Shown: piece by piece, positions 44,181 through 53,761 of the stretch
Layout: each line of letters starts with the position of its first letter
Numbering within the stretch: position 1 is the first letter of the stretch
From: SAR324 cluster bacterium
GTDB lineage: Bacteria; SAR324; NAC60-12
DNA length: 64,000 bases
Assembly: GCA_015232315.1 (NCBI GenBank)
Contig: JADFZZ010000001.1
Location: 1-64,000 of the forward strand
Reading direction: 5' to 3'
Notes under the pieces: generated by a model
What the model was told of the DNA's origin: nothing
Database searches by the model: none
Seen by the model: only the letters and a program-made list of their open reading frames with translations
Made by a program: the position numbers and the translations under genes

Positions 44181-44771
44181 ATGAAAACACTTATGGAAAA
44201 ATCGTTATTTCGAAAAGAAGTGTTACCTTTCTTTTCACAGTTCACACTATTGATTGTGGCAACAATCATTGTGGATGTCATGCTACACCAGCTTGGATTG
44301 GTTTGGATCGGTAGATATTTAGGAATACCGGGAACCTTGATCATTCTGCTATCTTTTCTCTATTCACTGAGAAAACGAAAGAAAATTCAACGGGGATCCC
44401 CTAAAAAATGGATGCATTTCCATGAAATTTGCGCATGGTCAGGTTCATTGCTGATATTGGTTCATGGTGGTATTCATTTTAACGCAATTCTGCCCTGGTT
44501 GGCTATCATTGCCATGCTGGTGGAAATTATGAGCGGATTAACAGGTGAATTTCTGCTGAAACGATCCCAACAACGAGTTTCTTCCAGAAAAAAATATTTT
44601 CTACAGCAAGGGCTCTCCCAGGAAAAAATAGAAAATACAATTTTCTGGGACGCGGTTGCCGTGGATTTAATGAAGAAATGGAGATCTGTGCATCTCCCGA
44701 TTACCCTGGTATTTTCTGTTTTGTCCATCATCCACATTGTGACTGTTTTTCTATTCTGGGAGTGGAAATGA
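44181..44771 (+). CDS. Membrane subunit of a cytochrome complex, probable heme b type
   Basis: The protein (about 196 aa) has four to five hydrophobic segments (FTLLIVATIIVDVML, GTLIILLSFLYSL, ICAWSGSLLILVHGG, LPITLVFSVLSIIHIV). Histidines sit inside or next to them (HFHEICAW, LVHGGIHF, IIHIVT), suggesting axial ligands to b-type hemes as in ferric-reductase-like or formate-dehydrogenase-gamma-like subunits. A charged cytoplasmic loop is rich in Lys and Gln. The stop overlaps the start of the ten-heme cytochrome gene (ATGA), so the two are cotranslated and probably form an electron-transfer complex. No exact family match is claimed. Confidence 0.65.
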   Translation: MKTLMEKSLFRKEVLPFFSQFTLLIVATIIVDVMLHQLGLVWIGRYLGIPGTLIILLSFLYSLRKRKKIQRGSPKKWMHFHEICAWSGSLLILVHGGIHFNAILPWLAIIAMLVEIMSGLTGEFLLKRSQQRVSSRKKYFLQQGLSQEKIENTIFWDAVAVDLMKKWRSVHLPITLVFSVLSIIHIVTVFLFWEWK

Positions 44772-45652
44772 AAAAAAGAAGCATCTATCCTCTTCTGACT
44801 ATATTATTACTGGCCTGTGTAGTTCTCAGTTTCTTGTATCCTCATTGGCTGTTAAGTCCGGGAAAACTCATGGACGCACATCAGGAATTAACAACAAATT
44901 GTTTATCCTGTCACACTCTTTTTCAGGGAACTCCTGTAAATAAATGTATTTCCTGCCATCGCGTGGATGATATTGGCTTGATGACATCCAAAGGGGTTCC
45001 CATTAAAAGGGAGAAAAAAGACACAGTCGCATTTCATCAAAATTTGAATGAAGCGGACTGTATCAGTTGTCATGCGGAACATCAGGGATTTAAATCGGTC
45101 AAACCGGTAACAAGATTTTCTCATGAGCTGTTGAATTCTTCGATCAAAACCAATTGTACGGCCTGTCACAAGAGCCCTGAAGATTCGTTGCATGCGCATG
45201 TTCCACAAAACTGTACTGAATGCCATAATCTGGAAAAATGGGTCCCTGCGCGCTTCGAGCATAGTGTGCTGGATTCTGTTACCCTTAAAGATTGTGTCGC
45301 ATGCCATCCATCACCCAAAGATAATTTTCACCAACAAGTTGCAGGAAGTTGCGGGCAATGTCATAGTCAGGATAAATGGCTTCCCTCAACATTTGACCAT
45401 CGAAAATATTTTGTTTTTGATAAGCACCATCCTAAGGATTGCAACAACTGTCATTTAAAGAGTAATTATCAGCAATATTCCTGCTATGAATGTCATGAGC
45501 ATAGCCCCTCAAAAATCAGAAGTGAACATATTGAAGAAGGAATTTATAAGTATGAAAATTGTGTGGAGTGCCACCGAAGCGGCAATGAAAAAGATATCAG
45601 ATGGAACAGAGGAACAAACAGAAAATGGGAGAAAGATCACGATGACGATTGA
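44768..45652 (+). CDS. Ten-heme c-type cytochrome, membrane-anchored
   Basis: The start overlaps the previous stop. The protein (294 aa) has an N-terminal hydrophobic anchor or uncleaved signal (SIYPLLTILLLACVVLSFLYP). I count ten CxxCH heme-binding motifs: CLSCH, CISCH twice, CTACH, CTECH, CVACH, CGQCH, CNNCH, CYECH and CVECH. Many extra His residues can serve as distal ligands. The pattern resembles cytochrome c3/c7-like and NrfH-NapC-associated multiheme proteins rather than MtrA. It should carry electrons in the periplasm. The acidic C-terminus (KDHDDD) has no heme motif. Its partner is the membrane protein encoded just upstream. Confidence 0.9.
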   Translation: MKKRSIYPLLTILLLACVVLSFLYPHWLLSPGKLMDAHQELTTNCLSCHTLFQGTPVNKCISCHRVDDIGLMTSKGVPIKREKKDTVAFHQNLNEADCISCHAEHQGFKSVKPVTRFSHELLNSSIKTNCTACHKSPEDSLHAHVPQNCTECHNLEKWVPARFEHSVLDSVTLKDCVACHPSPKDNFHQQVAGSCGQCHSQDKWLPSTFDHRKYFVFDKHHPKDCNNCHLKSNYQQYSCYECHEHSPSKIRSEHIEEGIYKYENCVECHRSGNEKDIRWNRGTNRKWEKDHDDD

Positions 45653-45724: not shown

Positions 45725-47011
45725 TCAGGCCGCGTCGTCGATTTCTCTGGTGGCAGTGATTGCCGCTTTGGTTCCATCCGATACCGCGACGGTGATCTGG
45801 CGGTAAGGATTATTCGCGACATCTCCCACAGCAAAAACATCTTTCACAGTGGTCCGCATAAACACATCGGTTTTGATGTATCCCCACTGGTCTTTTTCAA
45901 AGCGATCCCCGAATAAATCAATATTGGGTTTCATTCCCGCGAATATAAATACGCCATGAGTGGAAAGGGTTTTAAGCTGGCGCGTTTTTAAATCTTCGAC
46001 AGTGACATCCATCCCGGTGGGGGTTTTTTCAAATTTTCTAGGCTCATGTTCCAGGATAAACTCAATTTTTTCATTGGCGAAGGCTTTTTCCTGAGCCAGT
46101 TTATTAGCCTGCAACGTCGCAAATTGATGAACAATGGTCACTTTGGTGGCAAATTTGGTGATGAACAGCGATTCTTCCACCGCTGAGTTTCCGCCACCAA
46201 TCACGACCACTTCCTTATCCTGAAAATATTTACCATCACACGTCGCACAGTAACTGATGCCATCGCCTTTGTATTCTTCTTCTCCGGGAACTCCCAAAAG
46301 CCGGTGGGTTGAACCGGTGGCAACAATGATTTTTTTGGCCCGGATCGTTTCGACGCCATCAATGATGATCTCTTTTTTTTCCAGATCAGCGTGAGTCACA
46401 TCCACCGCATACCGTCGCTCCACACCAGCCTCGACCGCCTGCTCATTCATATTGTGCATCAGCATGAAGCCTTCAATGGGCTTGGTGAATCCAGGGAAGT
46501 TACTGACCAGGTGGGTTTTGGAGACTTGTCCTCCCGCAAGACCGATATCCACGATAATCGTTTTCAGTTTTGCCTGAGCCGTATAAATTCCGGCAGTCAA
46601 ACCGGCAGGACCTGCCCCGAGAATCAGAACATCACATTCTGTTTCAAAGGGTTTGATTCCGCTTTTCAACTCTCTGGCCCGCTCAGTGCCGATCATGCTG
46701 TCAAGGTTTTCCATGATCTCCGCGCGTTTGATACCGCCTGTCAATTTTTTCCCGATGAGCTGGCCATCTTTATAAAATAACAATGTGGGAGAACTGTTGA
46801 CGCCAAGTTTATTGGCCAGTTCACGGTTCCCCTGCCTGAATATTTTTACAAATTTAATATCATGGCCATACACGTCATGCAGGCTATGAAATTTTGAAGC
46901 CAGGGCTTCGCAGGGAGGACACTCGGTTGAGTAAAAATCAAACGCGACCAGGCCTCCATTCAATACGACTTCTTCATATTGAGCTTCATTGATTTCAAGA
47001 ATGTTTTCCAT
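45725..47011 (-). CDS. Thioredoxin-thioredoxin reductase fusion
   Basis: The protein (428 aa) joins an N-terminal thioredoxin domain (about 1-108) to an FAD-dependent thioredoxin reductase (about 125-425). The thioredoxin active site is CPPC (Cys31/Cys34) instead of CGPC, and the cis-Pro is in NSSPTLLFY. The reductase has the FAD motif GAGPAG (132-137), the redox pair CATC (Cys255/Cys258), the NADPH motif GGGNSA and the FAD motif AVGDVANNP. The fusion reverses the reductase-thioredoxin order known from mycobacterial TrxB/A proteins. It starts one base from the end of the radical SAM gene, so it belongs to the same operon. CPPC changes the redox potential and suggests a dedicated substrate, perhaps the Cys-rich peptide of this locus. 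Confidence 0.9.
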   Translation of the reverse strand: MENILEINEAQYEEVVLNGGLVAFDFYSTECPPCEALASKFHSLHDVYGHDIKFVKIFRQGNRELANKLGVNSSPTLLFYKDGQLIGKKLTGGIKRAEIMENLDSMIGTERARELKSGIKPFETECDVLILGAGPAGLTAGIYTAQAKLKTIIVDIGLAGGQVSKTHLVSNFPGFTKPIEGFMLMHNMNEQAVEAGVERRYAVDVTHADLEKKEIIIDGVETIRAKKIIVATGSTHRLLGVPGEEEYKGDGISYCATCDGKYFQDKEVVVIGGGNSAVEESLFITKFATKVTIVHQFATLQANKLAQEKAFANEKIEFILEHEPRKFEKTPTGMDVTVEDLKTRQLKTLSTHGVFIFAGMKPNIDLFGDRFEKDQWGYIKTDVFMRTTVKDVFAVGDVANNPYRQITVAVSDGTKAAITATREIDDAA

Positions 47012-47012
47012 G

Positions 47013-48377
47013 TTACAACTCCTCTGCGAAATAAGTTGAAATGCCCATCCCCATCAATTGATCGACAGGACGGCAGTCTTCAGATAAAATTTCCCCTGTT
47101 TTGTTTTTTGCGACAGAGGCACACCCTCCGCCACAAGCCAGTGCCAAATTGCAACTCCGGCATTTGTCAATGGACAAAATATTTCTTTTTCCCCAGCGGC
47201 TGATAACATCAGCTTTTTTTGTGACCTCAGGATAAAAAGTCCCCAGGATCTCTCCTGTCTTTCCTGCTGTCGCGGTGCAGGAATAGATGTTGCCGTTATA
47301 ATCAAAAGCCCATTCTGTTTTGGTGGCGGGACAGGAATCAAACAACGGGTCTGGAAGTTCGCCTTTTTCAAATAAAAATTTTGAAATAGAAAATGCCGGT
47401 TGATGGAATTTCAGAAAATCAGGATACCTTTTGACGATTTCATACACATGCTCATACATGGTCACTCTGCTGAATAATTTGGCGCTATCCGCTTGGCATG
47501 TGTGCAGTTCATAATTTCGACCCAGTTGCGTCTTGAAAAATTGGCTGTCGGTCCATCCTTTTTCAATGGCAAACCGGGCCAGATTTTCCAGATCATCAAT
47601 ATTTTCCTTGTCAACGACGATTCTTAAATTGATTGGAATTTCATTTTGTAAACATAAATCAATCCCTGAGACAATTTTGTCAAAGGTTTCATTGCCGTTG
47701 CGTAACGCTCTTCTCTTGTTATGAAGCTCCCGGGTTCCATCCAGTGTCACCTGAATTTCCTTGATCGAAGCGGTTTTCAGGATATCGATATATTCTTCGA
47801 GCGTATAACCGTTGGTCACGCCCGCAATCTGGAGGTTTCGCTGATTGGCTTTTTCAATGATTTTTTTAATGTTTTCCTGGTGAAATTTCCCAATCAGAAA
47901 CGGTTCGCCCCCAAAAAGCGTGATATATTTTTTGCGTGAGTGGAATTCCCGGTCAATATATTGAAAAAAAGCCTCGAGTAGCTCTTCTTTCAACGGATTC
48001 GGGGTTTGGGCGTATTCTACCTGAAAGCAGTATTCACAATCAAAATTGCAACTGTATTGAGGAACAAAAAAGATCTGTACCTCGTCCTGTTCCTGGTTCT
48101 GGAGAAATTCCAGATACTTTAATTTAAACCGCGATTCCTCTTCTTTTTCATCAACGAGATACCCTTTTTCAATATATTCATCGATGTCTGAGTATTTCCC
48201 TTCCTGAATTTCGCGGGCCTTTTGTGCTGTGAGAATATCAGCGTTTCCTGAGAGCAGGTTGACCAGAAAAAATTGATCAGAATCTTTGATTTGTGAAAAA
48301 ATATTATGATGAGAGAAAATCACTTTGACCTGATGGCAATAAATGTTTGAACCCCAAAAACGGGTAATGACAAACAC
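47013..48377 (-). CDS. Radical SAM/SPASM peptide maturase
   Basis: The enzyme (454 aa) has a GTG start with GAGAAG upstream. The N-terminal 100 residues form a domain typical of peptide maturases (FSHHNIFSQI, FLVNLLSGNADIL), which in relatives binds the precursor. The radical SAM core has Cys110, Cys114 and Cys117 in CNFDCEYC for the SAM-bound cluster, plus FGGEPFL and VTLDGTRELHNKRR. The C-terminal SPASM region is Cys-rich: DSCPATKTEW, IYSCTATAGKTGEILG, and CRSCNLALACGGGCASV, with a final Cys in EDCRP, enough for two auxiliary clusters. Such enzymes form thioether or carbon-carbon crosslinks or oxidise residues in small peptides. A 31-residue Cys-rich peptide gene lies 31 bases upstream on the same strand. 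Confidence 0.92.
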   Translation of the reverse strand: MFVITRFWGSNIYCHQVKVIFSHHNIFSQIKDSDQFFLVNLLSGNADILTAQKAREIQEGKYSDIDEYIEKGYLVDEKEEESRFKLKYLEFLQNQEQDEVQIFFVPQYSCNFDCEYCFQVEYAQTPNPLKEELLEAFFQYIDREFHSRKKYITLFGGEPFLIGKFHQENIKKIIEKANQRNLQIAGVTNGYTLEEYIDILKTASIKEIQVTLDGTRELHNKRRALRNGNETFDKIVSGIDLCLQNEIPINLRIVVDKENIDDLENLARFAIEKGWTDSQFFKTQLGRNYELHTCQADSAKLFSRVTMYEHVYEIVKRYPDFLKFHQPAFSISKFLFEKGELPDPLFDSCPATKTEWAFDYNGNIYSCTATAGKTGEILGTFYPEVTKKADVISRWGKRNILSIDKCRSCNLALACGGGCASVAKNKTGEILSEDCRPVDQLMGMGISTYFAEEL

Positions 48378-48408
48378 ACTTCTCTCATTACCCGCAAGTT
48401 ACTGAAAC

Positions 48409-48504
48409 TTAATCGTGACAACCGGCGACTGTTGTGGAAACTTTCGCACAGCACTGTGCCACTGCTTTGCATTTACAATCTTTCTTTTTAATCAATGATT
48501 TCAT
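48409..48504 (-). CDS. Cys-rich 31-residue peptide, candidate RiPP precursor
   Basis: A short frame starts at 48504, five bases after a near-perfect AAGGAGG. It encodes 31 residues: a basic leader-like start (MKSLIKKKD), then Cys10, Cys12, Cys18, Cys19 and Cys29, with the motifs CKCKAVAQCC and AGCHD at the end. It lies in line with the methyltransferase gene upstream (37 bases) and the radical SAM gene downstream (31 bases). The size, cysteine content and neighbours are those expected of a precursor peptide for a SPASM maturase. It is not classed by any family I can name. It could instead be a small metal- or metalloid-binding peptide; both may be true. Confidence 0.8.
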   Translation of the reverse strand: MKSLIKKKDCKCKAVAQCCAKVSTTVAGCHD

Positions 48505-48541
48505 AAATCCTCCTTGTTCAGGTTAATTAACAGAGGCAAAA

Positions 48542-49180
48542 TCAGGGTTTCCAGCCCATGATGGTAAAGCTGGCAACCGTTGCTTTGCCTTTCTCATAAG
48601 GAACACTTTCCTTAAGAATTTGAATGCGTTCAAAACCAGTATTAGTCAAGGTTGCCAGATATTCATCCCTGGTAACCGCGCCAGCCCAGCATTCAGATAT
48701 TGCGACAGGATCGTTTCTGTAGTCTTCAGGAATCTGTTCCATGGAATAGATATCGCTGATCACAAACCGACCTCCTTTTTTCATCACTCTGAAAATTTCC
48801 TGCCAGACAGCGTTTTTATTGGTGGCATGATTGATGGTACAATTGGACACAACCAGGTCCGCTTTTTCATCCGCGACCAACAACTGGTCCAGTTCCGTCT
48901 GGATGAATTCCACATTCCTGATTTCTGCTTTCTCAGCGTTTTCTCGGGCTTTTTGGATCATTCCATCTGAAATATCGATTCCATAGGCAAATCCCTGGTC
49001 TCCAACCATAACCGCCATTTTCAACAGCTCATGTCCACGGCCGCTTCCTAAATCAATACAGACTTCACCTTTTTGAGGCTTTGAATAATCCAGTGTGTTG
49101 CCACAGGACAAACAACAATTGCTTTCAGCCAAGCCGGAATAGCGTTGATTGATGGTTTCGATGGTCATTTCAGTATGCAT
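48542..49180 (-). CDS. ArsM-like SAM methyltransferase with conserved cysteines
   Basis: The protein (212 aa) starts after CTGGAG. It is a class I methyltransferase: CIDLGSGRGHELL (about 41-53) is motif I and YGIDISDGMIQKARE (about 66-80) motif II. It resembles arsenite methyltransferases strongly around VVSNCTINHA (Cys114), SDIYSMEQIPEDYRNDP and SECWAGAVT (Cys164), which correspond to the arsenic-binding cysteines of ArsM in known enzymes. An N-terminal cluster C22-C23-C26 (ESNCCLSCG) stands in for the third. It is shorter than usual ArsM (about 260-300). It may methylate arsenite, or, since it lies beside a Cys-rich peptide and a SPASM enzyme, a thiol or metalloid bound to that peptide. The latter is inference. 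Confidence 0.85.
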   Translation of the reverse strand: MHTEMTIETINQRYSGLAESNCCLSCGNTLDYSKPQKGEVCIDLGSGRGHELLKMAVMVGDQGFAYGIDISDGMIQKARENAEKAEIRNVEFIQTELDQLLVADEKADLVVSNCTINHATNKNAVWQEIFRVMKKGGRFVISDIYSMEQIPEDYRNDPVAISECWAGAVTRDEYLATLTNTGFERIQILKESVPYEKGKATVASFTIMGWKP

Positions 49181-49207
49181 ATGTTCTCCAGGACAGATTA
49201 TTGCGGA

Positions 49208-49372
49208 TCAATCTTTTTTCCAATTGACTTCAATCTTTTTTTCACCAATTTCATTTTTGGCTATTGTCGCTAACTTGACCAGTTCCTCTTTGCAACAGTC
49301 GATCGTTTTCGCTTCGCTGATCCTTCGAATCAATTCATCTGCGAATTCTTTGATTGTAATGGTTTTTTTCAT
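49208..49372 (-). CDS. Small Cys-Cys protein starting the radical SAM/ArsM-like operon
   Basis: The ATG at 49372 has AGAGGAG upstream. An earlier in-frame codon (49477) has none. The product (54 aa) is charged and helical (TIKEFADELIRRISEAKT) with a single vicinal Cys pair in TIDCCKEELVKL. Vicinal cysteines bind arsenite or soft metals well. It lies 27 bases before the ArsM-like gene and appears to be the first gene of the operon. It could be a second precursor, a chaperone for the peptide, or a metalloid-binding protein. I do not recognise the family. Confidence 0.75.
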   Translation of the reverse strand: MKKTITIKEFADELIRRISEAKTIDCCKEELVKLATIAKNEIGEKKIEVNWKKD

Positions 49373-49948: not shown

Positions 49949-52900
49949 TTACGGCCCATTCACTTCAAGGATCAAAAAAGTCACATCATCCCGTGAATTG
50001 CCACCGGTGAATTGTGTCCACTTGTCCTGCAAAAACGATTTCATGTCGGTCAACGACAGATCCAGACACTGTTCCAACACTTTTACCACGCGTTCTTCGC
50101 CCCAAAATTCACCACTGCCATTCTTGTTTTCGGATTCAATCAGACCATCTGTGTAGAGAAACACCTTGTCTCCCGGCAGGAGTCGACTGGTTTGCTCCTC
50201 ATAAATCAAACCAATATCCTTGTCCGGCATAGCACCAATGAACAAACCACGTGTGTCCCAGAATTCCAGTGTTTTTGTCTGATGTCTAAGAATAACAGCG
50301 GCTGGATGAGACGCGTTGCTGTAAATCACACTTCCGTCAGGAGAGAGTTTCAGCAGGAACGCCGTCAGGTATTCATTGGTTTTAATGATCTGGAACATGG
50401 ATTGATTGAAGTTTCGCAGGATCGCTTTGGGAGAATTTTGATGCCTGAGAATATCAGAGAAACAGAGTTTGGCCATAATGGTGATGAAGGCCGCCGGAAC
50501 GCCGTGCCCCATCGCATCCGCAATCAGAATATATAAGGATCCGTCTTCCAGGGGGATGATTTCATAATAATCGCCGTTGACCTGCCCCAGTGCCCTTGAA
50601 TAACCATCAATCCTGAAGTCTCGATGTGACAGGGGCAGAACAGGAAATATTCCCTGCTGAATGTTGGATGCCAGTTCAAGTTCCCCTCGAAGCAACGCGT
50701 CTTTATGTTTCAGGTCATCCAGCGTCTGGTTGAGATAATGGGTCCGTTCCAGAACCTGACTTTCAAGATTTTGAACGAGGGACGCGTTTTCAATATAGGG
50801 TGGCAGTAATTCACACACATGCGCCAGAAATTCATATTCTGATTCAAGATAATGCGTTCCATTGATTTTGTGCCCCAAAAACATGATGCCCACAAGGGTT
50901 TCACCAGAAAAAACTCCGCAAAACCATTCCGTATTTTTCAATAGAGACCCCATGCTCAGATGATTATCAAGGTTCCCCTGTTTGAAATCCCGAAATGTAT
51001 CCCGATGCATCGGGTAGGTTTCAAGCATGCTGAACAGCGGGAGATCTGCCGGAAAGTGCATCAGGGAGACAGGGTCTTCTTTTGCCTGATGCTCCCAGAA
51101 CAGACTGCGCCGAATATTGGTTTTCTGCCAACCATCAAACGAATTCTCCTTTTTGTTATAAAACACGACCGCACAGTGCATGGAAAATAATTCCGCAAGC
51201 AAATGCATTGAAATGCTCTGAAAAATGTCTTCCAGTTGCCGGGCATTGGATAATTCAGATGTCAGTCGTCGCAGGCGTGTGTTCAGTTCATATCTGCGAC
51301 TGTGTCCCAAAAACAGATTTACGGTTCGCATCCACAGACTTTGAAACAGATAAATTCCGCCAAAACAGACAAAAATTACCTGCGCATACCATTGCAGGGT
51401 ATTCTGACTGTTGACCATGTTCAGCACAAACGCGATTTCGTAAAATAACCAGAAAATCCCTGACCAATACAGACTCTTGCGGAAAAATGACTGCGCATAC
51501 GGAATATCCCCCCTGTAAAAGCCATAGATCATGATGAGGATCGGTAAAAACGCGTAATTCCCGGGTGGATACCACTGGAACCATTCCACCAGTGGCATAT
51601 CCAGCAACATGAGATCGGCTGCGCCACCCAGACCAATGAGGATGTAAATCACCTGTTCTCTGCGGATCATCGTCATTTGGTGATAATTTTTGTAAATAGT
51701 ATAGGTCACAGACAGAAGCATCACAATGACCCCTAATTCCAAAGGCAGATACAGGGGACCTGCCAAAGCGAAGCGCCCCCAGGGATAATCCACAATATCT
51801 ACGATCAACCATGGTGTTTGGGAGGTTATCGCCAGGGTGCCACATAAGCCATAAACCAACAGCAACCACAAACGACCGGGCTTGTAATCCATCAGCCACA
51901 GAAAAAACCGGATCGCCACACCTAATTGCAACGCCAGCATCAAATAACGGATTCTTGCGATTTTGAGACTCCATTCGTAATGACCGATGATCTGGTTCAC
52001 CAGAAATTCGAGTCCGTAAAAACTGAAAATAATGAGAACGACGCCCATCATCAGCGTTTCTTTGGGAAACTGGGTTTTTTTCAGAACCAGGATTGCGCCG
52101 AAACAGGAAAAAATGATCATCAAGGCCGCCGGAATGCCATAAGGAACCACCGCGTTGAATATCAGTTCATGGTGAAAATTACTGAACAGATACAGCACAG
52201 TGAACAGATGCACGGCAAAGCCGGCATAGATAAAACCATACATCAGATATTTTTTTGTGCGTTTCCATCGAACCAGTGAGACCATCCAGTCTTCTGTCGT
52301 ATGTGTGACATAAATCATCAGGGCATATGCCGCAATCATGAATAACAAGGCATACGGGTACTGTCCGGCAATACTGGAACGATCGGTATATCCAGCCAGT
52401 AACGAAATTATCAGGAGCAGAATTCCACTGAGAATATAGCGATGTTTCCGTTTTCTCCGTTGCGAAAACATACTGGAACCAATGGTTTGAACGGCCAGAA
52501 TTTGCTGAAACAGAAACCATAACAGCGTCAGAAAAGCTCCTGCGCCTCCTGATTCAATAATCACAATACCATTGGTGTAGAATGAGTTGGATTCAGCAAT
52601 CTGTTCACCCCACAAAAACATGATCAATACCAGCACACTCCAGAGATTGAAACGTTTCCAGATTGTATAGGTATCAAGAACAGTCACAAACCACCAAATG
52701 TGCAGCAATCCCTGAATTACCAGAAAACTGAGACCGGTTCGCAGGATCCAGATTTCCCACGTACCAAAAGAATGAGTGGAGAGGAAATAGGCAAATTCAA
52801 TAAGGCAGGCCCATAGCAGGCACATCATCCCCAGTAAAATACTTTCTATTCGGCGTCTTCCTGCTTGCAGGCACCAGAGTGCCGCGCCAAAAAACGCCAC

Positions 52901-53761
52901 CTGCGCCAATAAGATACTGATCAAATAGGGCGATTTTTCCAGAACGACCGCATTTCCTGTCCAGTAATGGTACAGCAGTGCGATCACATTGCCGCCAAAA
53001 ATACCTGAAGTGATCAGCAGCATAAATCCTGAAAACTGCCCACTGACAACCAGTGTTTTAAAATAATTTTTCCAGGAATTTTTCCACAAGCCAACCGCAA
53101 TCAGGGTCAGCGGTAAAAACCGTGATTGACTCAGCAGATACCATTCTTTGCCTTCCATGGGAAATGTTCTGAGAATCTCCATGAACCAGCCCAGCAGAAC
53201 GCCTGAAAACACCCAGCGGTAGGTTTCCTGACGCAGTGGGATAGGACTTCTGAAACGGTAAAACAGAAAGGCTCCATAAACCATGGTTCCCCAGCGTAGC
53301 AGTGTGAGTAAATATAAACCCGCGCCACCGCTAAGCGTAAACCCATAGGAAAACTCAACACTACCTTTGAAATAAAACTCGGTGAAGGTTGATGGAAAAA
53401 AAGCCAGCGCGATGGTATACATCGTCCACTCCAGCCAGTGTCGCTGTGACTGTCCGGTCACACGATGCATGAACTGAATTTCAACCGGCAGAATGAGGAG
53501 ATAAATAAAATAATGGAGTTTGATGAATTCGAGCCACGTATTCCCTGACACCATGAGGGAACCCAGACTGACATCCACCGCGGAAAATAAATGCAGCAAA
53601 CAGAGAATCGCAAAAAAACGGCTGGATTGAGATTCGCGTTCCTTTTTAAACGTGTAGGTGAGAAATATGCTACTGAAAACAATGGTGAAAAGAGAAGGAA
53701 GCAGATAAGGAAAGATCCGGTCTGTACGGAACAACATGGAAAGCAAGTCTTGCTGTCCCAT
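49949..53761 (-). CDS. Giant multi-membrane PP2C (RsbU/SpoIIE-type) phosphatase
   Basis: The protein (1270 aa) has an N-terminal two-thirds with roughly twenty hydrophobic segments (residues about 10-830), in blocks separated by short loops such as AGRRRIESILLG. A GAF-like domain (about 850-1010) follows, then a coiled coil (LESQVLERTHYLNQTLDDLKHKDAL) and a PP2C domain of SpoIIE/RsbU type (about 1045-1268). Metal-binding acids are in NGDYYEI, ADAMGHGVPAAF, YTDGLIES and SRDDVTFLIL. The enzyme should dephosphorylate an anti-sigma-antagonist, and a STAS protein is encoded just 6 bases upstream. The membrane part is unusually large and may sense or bind a lipid, light or small molecule; no transporter signature was recognised. 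Confidence 0.88.
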   Translation of the reverse strand: MGQQDLLSMLFRTDRIFPYLLPSLFTIVFSSIFLTYTFKKERESQSSRFFAILCLLHLFSAVDVSLGSLMVSGNTWLEFIKLHYFIYLLILPVEIQFMHRVTGQSQRHWLEWTMYTIALAFFPSTFTEFYFKGSVEFSYGFTLSGGAGLYLLTLLRWGTMVYGAFLFYRFRSPIPLRQETYRWVFSGVLLGWFMEILRTFPMEGKEWYLLSQSRFLPLTLIAVGLWKNSWKNYFKTLVVSGQFSGFMLLITSGIFGGNVIALLYHYWTGNAVVLEKSPYLISILLAQVAFFGAALWCLQAGRRRIESILLGMMCLLWACLIEFAYFLSTHSFGTWEIWILRTGLSFLVIQGLLHIWWFVTVLDTYTIWKRFNLWSVLVLIMFLWGEQIAESNSFYTNGIVIIESGGAGAFLTLLWFLFQQILAVQTIGSSMFSQRRKRKHRYILSGILLLIISLLAGYTDRSSIAGQYPYALLFMIAAYALMIYVTHTTEDWMVSLVRWKRTKKYLMYGFIYAGFAVHLFTVLYLFSNFHHELIFNAVVPYGIPAALMIIFSCFGAILVLKKTQFPKETLMMGVVLIIFSFYGLEFLVNQIIGHYEWSLKIARIRYLMLALQLGVAIRFFLWLMDYKPGRLWLLLVYGLCGTLAITSQTPWLIVDIVDYPWGRFALAGPLYLPLELGVIVMLLSVTYTIYKNYHQMTMIRREQVIYILIGLGGAADLMLLDMPLVEWFQWYPPGNYAFLPILIMIYGFYRGDIPYAQSFFRKSLYWSGIFWLFYEIAFVLNMVNSQNTLQWYAQVIFVCFGGIYLFQSLWMRTVNLFLGHSRRYELNTRLRRLTSELSNARQLEDIFQSISMHLLAELFSMHCAVVFYNKKENSFDGWQKTNIRRSLFWEHQAKEDPVSLMHFPADLPLFSMLETYPMHRDTFRDFKQGNLDNHLSMGSLLKNTEWFCGVFSGETLVGIMFLGHKINGTHYLESEYEFLAHVCELLPPYIENASLVQNLESQVLERTHYLNQTLDDLKHKDALLRGELELASNIQQGIFPVLPLSHRDFRIDGYSRALGQVNGDYYEIIPLEDGSLYILIADAMGHGVPAAFITIMAKLCFSDILRHQNSPKAILRNFNQSMFQIIKTNEYLTAFLLKLSPDGSVIYSNASHPAAVILRHQTKTLEFWDTRGLFIGAMPDKDIGLIYEEQTSRLLPGDKVFLYTDGLIESENKNGSGEFWGEERVVKVLEQCLDLSLTDMKSFLQDKWTQFTGGNSRDDVTFLILEVNGP

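Follow-up and report, generated by a model that had tools for sequence, protein, structure and literature searches.

The window analysed here is a stretch of 64,000 nucleotides from the genome of a SAR324 cluster bacterium (contig JADFZZ010000001.1, positions 1 to 64,000). Between positions 45725 and 49372, its minus strand carries five genes that, in the order of transcription, would encode a 54-residue protein (p54), a methyltransferase resembling the arsenite methyltransferase ArsM, a small cysteine-rich peptide, a radical S-adenosylmethionine (SAM) enzyme with a SPASM domain and a fusion of thioredoxin (Trx) with thioredoxin reductase (TrxR). An initial inspection of the letters (hereafter the sequence-only reading) had described the five genes, separated by gaps of 27, 37, 31 and 1 bases, and had taken them for a candidate operon devoted to a ribosomally synthesised and post-translationally modified peptide (RiPP) or a metalloid peptide. 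All five were recovered as open reading frames (ORFs) with the sizes and spacing described. The features of the cassette are as follows:

49208..49372, minus strand: p54, a 54-residue accessory protein with an IDCCK motif; a conserved small family without a library family
48542..49180, minus strand: short ArsM-type SAM methyltransferase of 212 residues; cysteines C26, C114 and C164, fold match to ArsM
48409..48504, minus strand: precursor peptide MKSLIKKKDCKCKAVAQCCAKVSTTVAGCHD, 31 residues with five cysteines; core invariant among homologues
48356..48395, minus strand: terminator- or attenuator-like hairpin in the peptide-maturase intergenic gap; stem of 11 pairs with a U5 tract behind it, z = -3.7
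47013..48323 (probable start; longest ORF from 48377), minus strand: radical SAM/SPASM peptide maturase; PF04055, fold match
45725..47011, minus strand: thioredoxin (CPPC)-thioredoxin reductase (CATC) fusion; PF00085, PF07992, TIGR01292

The peptide is the most constrained element of the cassette at its C-terminal end. Homologues are 30 to 60 residues long; their N-terminus is usually MKSL and is joined by a linker, free in length and sequence, to a core that in all 71 distinct peptides reads A-[QL]-C-C-[AST]-K-x-[ST]-x4-G-C-H-[DN]-stop. The five cysteines noted in the sequence-only reading are indeed present in the window, but only the three of the CC and GCH motifs are conserved and the DCKC pair is not. 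Searching for the pattern gave a single occurrence per genome in 16 of 17 cassette genomes tested and no match in the controls; the seventeenth genome has the peptide as well, though the pattern missed its copy. Comparison of 84 distinct DNA copies of the gene yielded 9.1 changes per pair at the third codon position against 2.7 and 2.3 at the other two, a signature of purifying selection with synonymous drift. Altogether, the pattern counts, the invariant core and the excess of third-position changes rule out a chance ORF. The peptide had no match above cut-off among the curated families of Pfam and NCBIfam. What adjoins the maturase gene is a short conserved precursor ORF, as expected of a radical SAM/SPASM RiPP system.

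A scan of 84,980 genomes with the maturase identified 28 close loci (38-60% maturase identity) in Bacteroidota, Spirochaetota, Fibrobacterota and Bacillota. Wider searches added cassettes in 31 of the 247 genomes in the order of a Prolixibacteraceae member, in 33 of 296 genomes of the Spirochaetota group and in 4 of 341 genomes of a clostridial class; almost all of these yielded the peptide. The total stands at about 80 loci, mostly from uncultured bacteria, in five phyla including the window's SAR324-like genome; in a plasmid collection only remote maturases (<30% identity) were found. Every locus with enough DNA contains the methyltransferase, the peptide and the maturase, and nearly all contain the TrxR. 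The sequence-only reading had proposed to ask whether a short cysteine-rich ORF always accompanies the two enzymes, and this is the case: apparent gaps trace back to the end of a contig, to an insert or to a gene that has moved, as in locus L163, where the peptide gene adjoins arsR rather than lying between the two enzyme genes, or in genome G105, where it is found about 3 kb after the methyltransferase. Had the methyltransferase been found mainly in genomes lacking the radical SAM gene, this would have spoken against the proposal; it was not. Among the 296 Spirochaetota genomes, the two coincide in 31 of 33 genomes with the maturase and in 31 of 34 with the methyltransferase (Fisher 3e-36), and contig edges truncate five of the six genomes that deviate (G372, G474, G494, G512 and G529; one was found via p54). 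Over the whole set, the exceptions (these five together with L108, L114, L130 and G344) can nearly all be put down to the same three causes, G344 being the only one without such an explanation. With peptide, maturase and methyltransferase inseparable across about 80 loci and the core cysteines of the peptide invariant, the RiPP-like character of the operon is strongly supported, and we consider it highly probable that the genes constitute a genuine RiPP-type cassette.

Analysis of the maturase was in line with this assignment. The protein carries a Radical_SAM domain (PF04055) in a Pfam search, and the CxxxCxxC motif and the C-terminal SPASM cysteines are invariant in 17 maturase sequences, as expected of a SPASM maturase. 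The best NCBIfam matches are all RiPP maturases, namely CefB (149.7 bits for a cut-off of 600), TIGR04463 (133.4 for 525) and Clo7bot (127.9 for 600); these scores lie so far under the curated cut-offs that membership in any of the three is ruled out. The top matches of the structural model in the PDB are to a thioether-forming sactipeptide maturase (5why/5wgg, 18% identity). In the model, the N-terminal part of the protein, made of three strands and three helices, resembles a RiPP recognition element and may act as one. Since homologous maturases begin at the corresponding residue, the gene probably starts at the GTG codon at 48323 and not at 48377. The 31-base gap after the peptide gene, correct for the longest ORF, would then widen to about 85 nucleotides, a segment that holds the hairpin listed above. 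Terminator-like hairpins of differing sequence are found 3' of 18 of the 84 homologous peptide genes, as compared to 0-4 in dinucleotide shuffles; with an effective stem of at least 9, the figures are 14 and 0-1. This layout would be expected for a precursor produced in excess over its maturase. As to the Trx-TrxR fusion, which matches TIGR01292 at 313 bits, the active-site cysteines of both moieties are invariant in 12 cassette homologues: the Trx motif is CPPC, or CAPC in one protein, and the cysteine pair of TrxR is kept.

The methyltransferase scored 193 bits against the arsenite methyltransferase family NF008823, whose cut-off is 263. It is therefore predicted to be ArsM-like but falls outside the ArsM family by score, and an identity as canonical, arsenosugar or arsinothricin ArsM is ruled out since all scores are below the family cut-offs. 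The enzyme nonetheless has the three As(III)-binding cysteines of ArsM: C26, C114 and C164 align with C72, C174 and C224 of CmArsM, the Cyanidioschyzon enzyme. The alignment confirms the two conserved cysteines, Cys114 and Cys164, pointed out in the sequence-only reading, and adds the third. All three are invariant in 19 cassette methyltransferases that are 43-60% identical to that of the window. The 13 best PDB fold matches of the AlphaFold2 model (predicted local distance difference test score, 89.8) are all to ArsM or AS3MT proteins, while the thiol S-methyltransferases TmtA and GtmA are found among the weaker matches. Within the Bacteroidales, the scores set the cassette methyltransferases apart, with 31 genomes at 272-377 bits and ordinary ArsM proteins at or below 201 bits. 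Internal stop codons were reported in some methyltransferase matches; none was read as selenocysteine.

Other genes accompany this core in a lineage-dependent manner. No Pfam or NCBIfam family above cut-off includes p54; its homologues share the motif MKK-ITI-EF...IDCCK...IEV-W and occur in single copy in cassette loci, several of them immediately after the radical SAM or TrxR gene. Fourteen of the 15 genomes with p54 among the 296 Spirochaetota also have the maturase (Fisher 3e-14), and the fifteenth has the cassette methyltransferase at a contig end. By these sequence comparisons p54 is a real small protein family. In 16 loci of Bacteroidota or Spirochaetota, DUF1847 is found within or beside the cassette. 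The cysteine-rich domain DUF5714 is a free-standing neighbour of the cassette in Spirochaetota and also occurs beside it in clostridial loci; in L056 (5992-8121) and L189 (9201-11576), it extends the maturase as a C-terminal fusion. Since p54, DUF1847 and DUF5714 accompany the cassette in different lineages, the lineages share the core and differ in the accessories. A literature search on DUF1847 and DUF5714 returned nothing relevant. CreD, Pvc16-type and flagellar neighbours were rejected as parts of the cassette and ascribed to lineage-specific synteny. In five Spirochaetota loci (L152-L156), the gene immediately upstream of the methyltransferase encodes a MarR-type regulator with scattered cysteines, which may sense the inducing signal. 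In three loci of one Spirochaetota lineage (L157, L158 and L160), the cassette adjoins aldehyde:ferredoxin-oxidoreductase-like and alcohol-dehydrogenase-like genes, probably again through lineage synteny.

In the window itself, the operon converges with a multihaem cytochrome c gene (44678-45652; Cytochrom_CIII/C7-like), whose start is overlapped by a 197-residue ORF without Pfam match. Immediately upstream of the operon, at 49949-53761, lies a gene for a 1270-residue multi-pass membrane protein with a C-terminal SpoIIE-type phosphatase domain; the intervening segment of about 580 nucleotides contains no clear gene. Among 52 genomes of the window's small phylum, the window genome is the only one with the cassette; one other has a distant maturase (30-32% identity) with a different type of precursor. 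In the maturase tree, the window sequence falls among Bacteroidota and Spirochaetota sequences with no resolved sister. The absence of the cassette from relatives in the phylum and the position in the tree suggest that it was probably acquired horizontally. A second RiPP-like pair was seen in SAR324-type DNA (L010:1118-2865 and L059:5594-7341), consisting of a 62-residue peptide with ICCGKETGSGTNFGQC followed by a SPASM maturase (30% identity); a methyltransferase and additional radical SAM genes lie nearby.

The sequence-only reading knew of no described pathway with this exact set of genes, and the literature search likewise found no paper on it: no pathway was found in which an ArsM-type enzyme is combined with a peptide maturase of the SPASM type and a precursor of its own, and a search for RiPPs connected with arsenic gave nothing relevant. 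The closest relatives at the family level are the cysteine-rich RiPP systems CefA/CefB, TIGR04463 and Clo7bot, in which a SPASM maturase also lies beside a cysteine-rich precursor. The precursor of the present cassette differs in having one fixed 16-residue core without family match, and the known systems are without ArsM. The maturases of CteB-type sactipeptides and ranthipeptides (5wgg, 5why) share the fold, the SPASM clusters and a cysteine-containing substrate; to our knowledge, such systems have neither a methyltransferase nor a Trx-TrxR partner. Canonical ArsM (4fs8, 6cx6) has the same fold and As(III)-binding cysteines, whereas the window enzyme has just 212 residues, lacks the C-terminal extension and is almost always encoded beside the peptide and maturase. 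In the arsinothricin cluster arsQML, too, an ArsM-type methyltransferase gene adjoins a radical SAM gene in an ars setting, and As(III) undergoes C-As chemistry. The radical SAM protein of that cluster, ArsL, uses SAM to produce a small amino acid, and no precursor peptide is involved (PMC8552651); that of the window is a maturase of the SPASM type, accompanied by a conserved peptide and a Trx-TrxR. ArsM and a radical SAM protein (ArsS) also occur together in the arsenosugar pathway, where the radical SAM step is an adenosylation of arsenic and not the maturation of a peptide (PMC12159101). The window methyltransferase scores 81 bits against arsenosugar ArsM (NF038099; cut-off 400). With ArsM families below cut-off and the radical SAM protein matching peptide maturases, the cassette belongs to neither arsenic pathway. 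We regard it as a previously undescribed variant of SPASM RiPP systems.

Which element, if any, does the cassette handle? We favour the interpretation, with a probability of roughly 45%, that it is a dedicated RiPP-type system for a soft element, most likely arsenic. Besides the cysteine triad of the methyltransferase, several neighbourhoods point in this direction. The L163 cassette sits within an ars island containing an ArsP_1 permease, ACR3, an ArsC of the low-molecular-weight protein tyrosine phosphatase type and ArsR; in L189, ArsP and an ArsR of the LCVCD type lie beside the cassette; and L177 and L185 have neighbouring ArsR-type regulators with C-terminal CNC motifs. ACR3 is present in 22 of 33 cassette-bearing Spirochaetota and in 87 of 263 others (p = 2e-4, uncorrected for kinship, which lessens the weight of this association). 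Other observations weigh against arsenic. Most loci have no recognised ars gene nearby, and the window is among them. Several Bacteroidales loci contain DUF302, DUF6132, sulfide:quinone-oxidoreductase-like, DsrE-like or rhodanese-like genes, which suggest a link with sulfur, several of these sulfur-type names coming from sequence reading and not from a family search. Finally, ordinary ArsM is also present in 16 of the 31 Bacteroidales cassette genomes, and the cassette is therefore no simple replacement for ArsM. The proposal in the sequence-only reading of a peptide carrying methylated arsenic or decorated with it thus gains from the triad, the two ars-linked loci, the ArsR neighbours and ACR3, and is tempered by the sulfur-like surroundings of some cassettes.

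Starting from the gene anatomy, co-inheritance and residue conservation observed, a scheme can be drawn in which the substrate, the modification of the peptide and its contact with a metalloid are postulated. The N-terminal domain of the maturase would bind the MKSL end of the peptide, and the enzyme would alter the CC...GCHD core, possibly introducing a thioether or a different cross-link; the best structural match makes thioethers in cysteine-containing peptides. The matured peptide, with three soft ligands, could capture As(III) and pass it to the methyltransferase or hold it there during methylation, filling the role that glutathione or free thiols play for ordinary ArsM. Trx is a known reductant for ArsM, and the Trx-TrxR would reduce the cysteines of peptide and enzyme using NADPH. 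No exporter, peptidase or immunity gene is constant among the cassette loci. Since, in addition, the core is fixed and present in a single copy per genome, we argue for an intracellular cofactor or carrier and not a secreted toxin. A more specific version would make the product the first metalloid RiPP, its modified three-thiol core carrying, or covalently joined to, methylated arsenic through the action of the ArsM-type enzyme and its own Trx-TrxR, possibly with a C-As bond made by the SPASM enzyme; we regard it as doubtful.

The same architecture could serve another element, such as antimony, selenium or tellurium, mercury, or, in anaerobic and sulfidic habitats, sulfane sulfur or sulfide. 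The general lack of ars genes at most loci favours this alternative, as do DUF302 in 9 loci and DUF6132 in 11-13, and the DsrE-like, SQR-like, rhodanese-like and TauE-like genes that adjoin some Bacteroidota and Spirochaetota cassettes. Yet the methyltransferase retains exactly the As(III) cysteines of ArsM, and two independent loci are placed with ars genes, which leaves a different element rather unlikely. An unlikely explanation, too, is that no metalloid is involved and that the product is a thiol cofactor or redox peptide, cross-linked by the maturase, S-methylated on a cysteine by the methyltransferase and cycled through a disulfide by Trx-TrxR. An invariant core in single copy with no exporter is what cofactor peptides look like, the precursors of pyrroloquinoline quinone and mycofactocin being examples; the dedicated NADPH-Trx-TrxR partner and the TmtA and GtmA fold matches would fit as well. 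However, the invariant ArsM cysteine triad would not obviously be required for simple S-methylation of a peptide, and the ars-linked loci speak against this explanation. That the product is an antimicrobial or signal RiPP whose small core is conserved by happenstance, as a SPASM maturase with a small leader-core peptide might suggest, is very improbable given the missing constant transporter, peptidase and immunity gene and a one-copy core invariant across phyla, antimicrobial RiPP cores being prone to diversify.

A dedicated system for arsenic or a similar soft element thus remains our preferred interpretation. The near-unchanging core across five phyla implies a biochemical role that is specific and conserved, much as for peptide-derived cofactors, and through the cassette DUF1847, DUF5714 and p54 gain functional partners. 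Should arsenic be the element handled, arsenic biochemistry would gain a thiol ligand that is ribosomal and evolvable, and one could understand how ArsM is fed in cells that possibly lack glutathione. The peptide may be the first ribosomal peptide devoted to arsenic or a similar soft element and, were the metalloid shown, the cassette would be categorically new.

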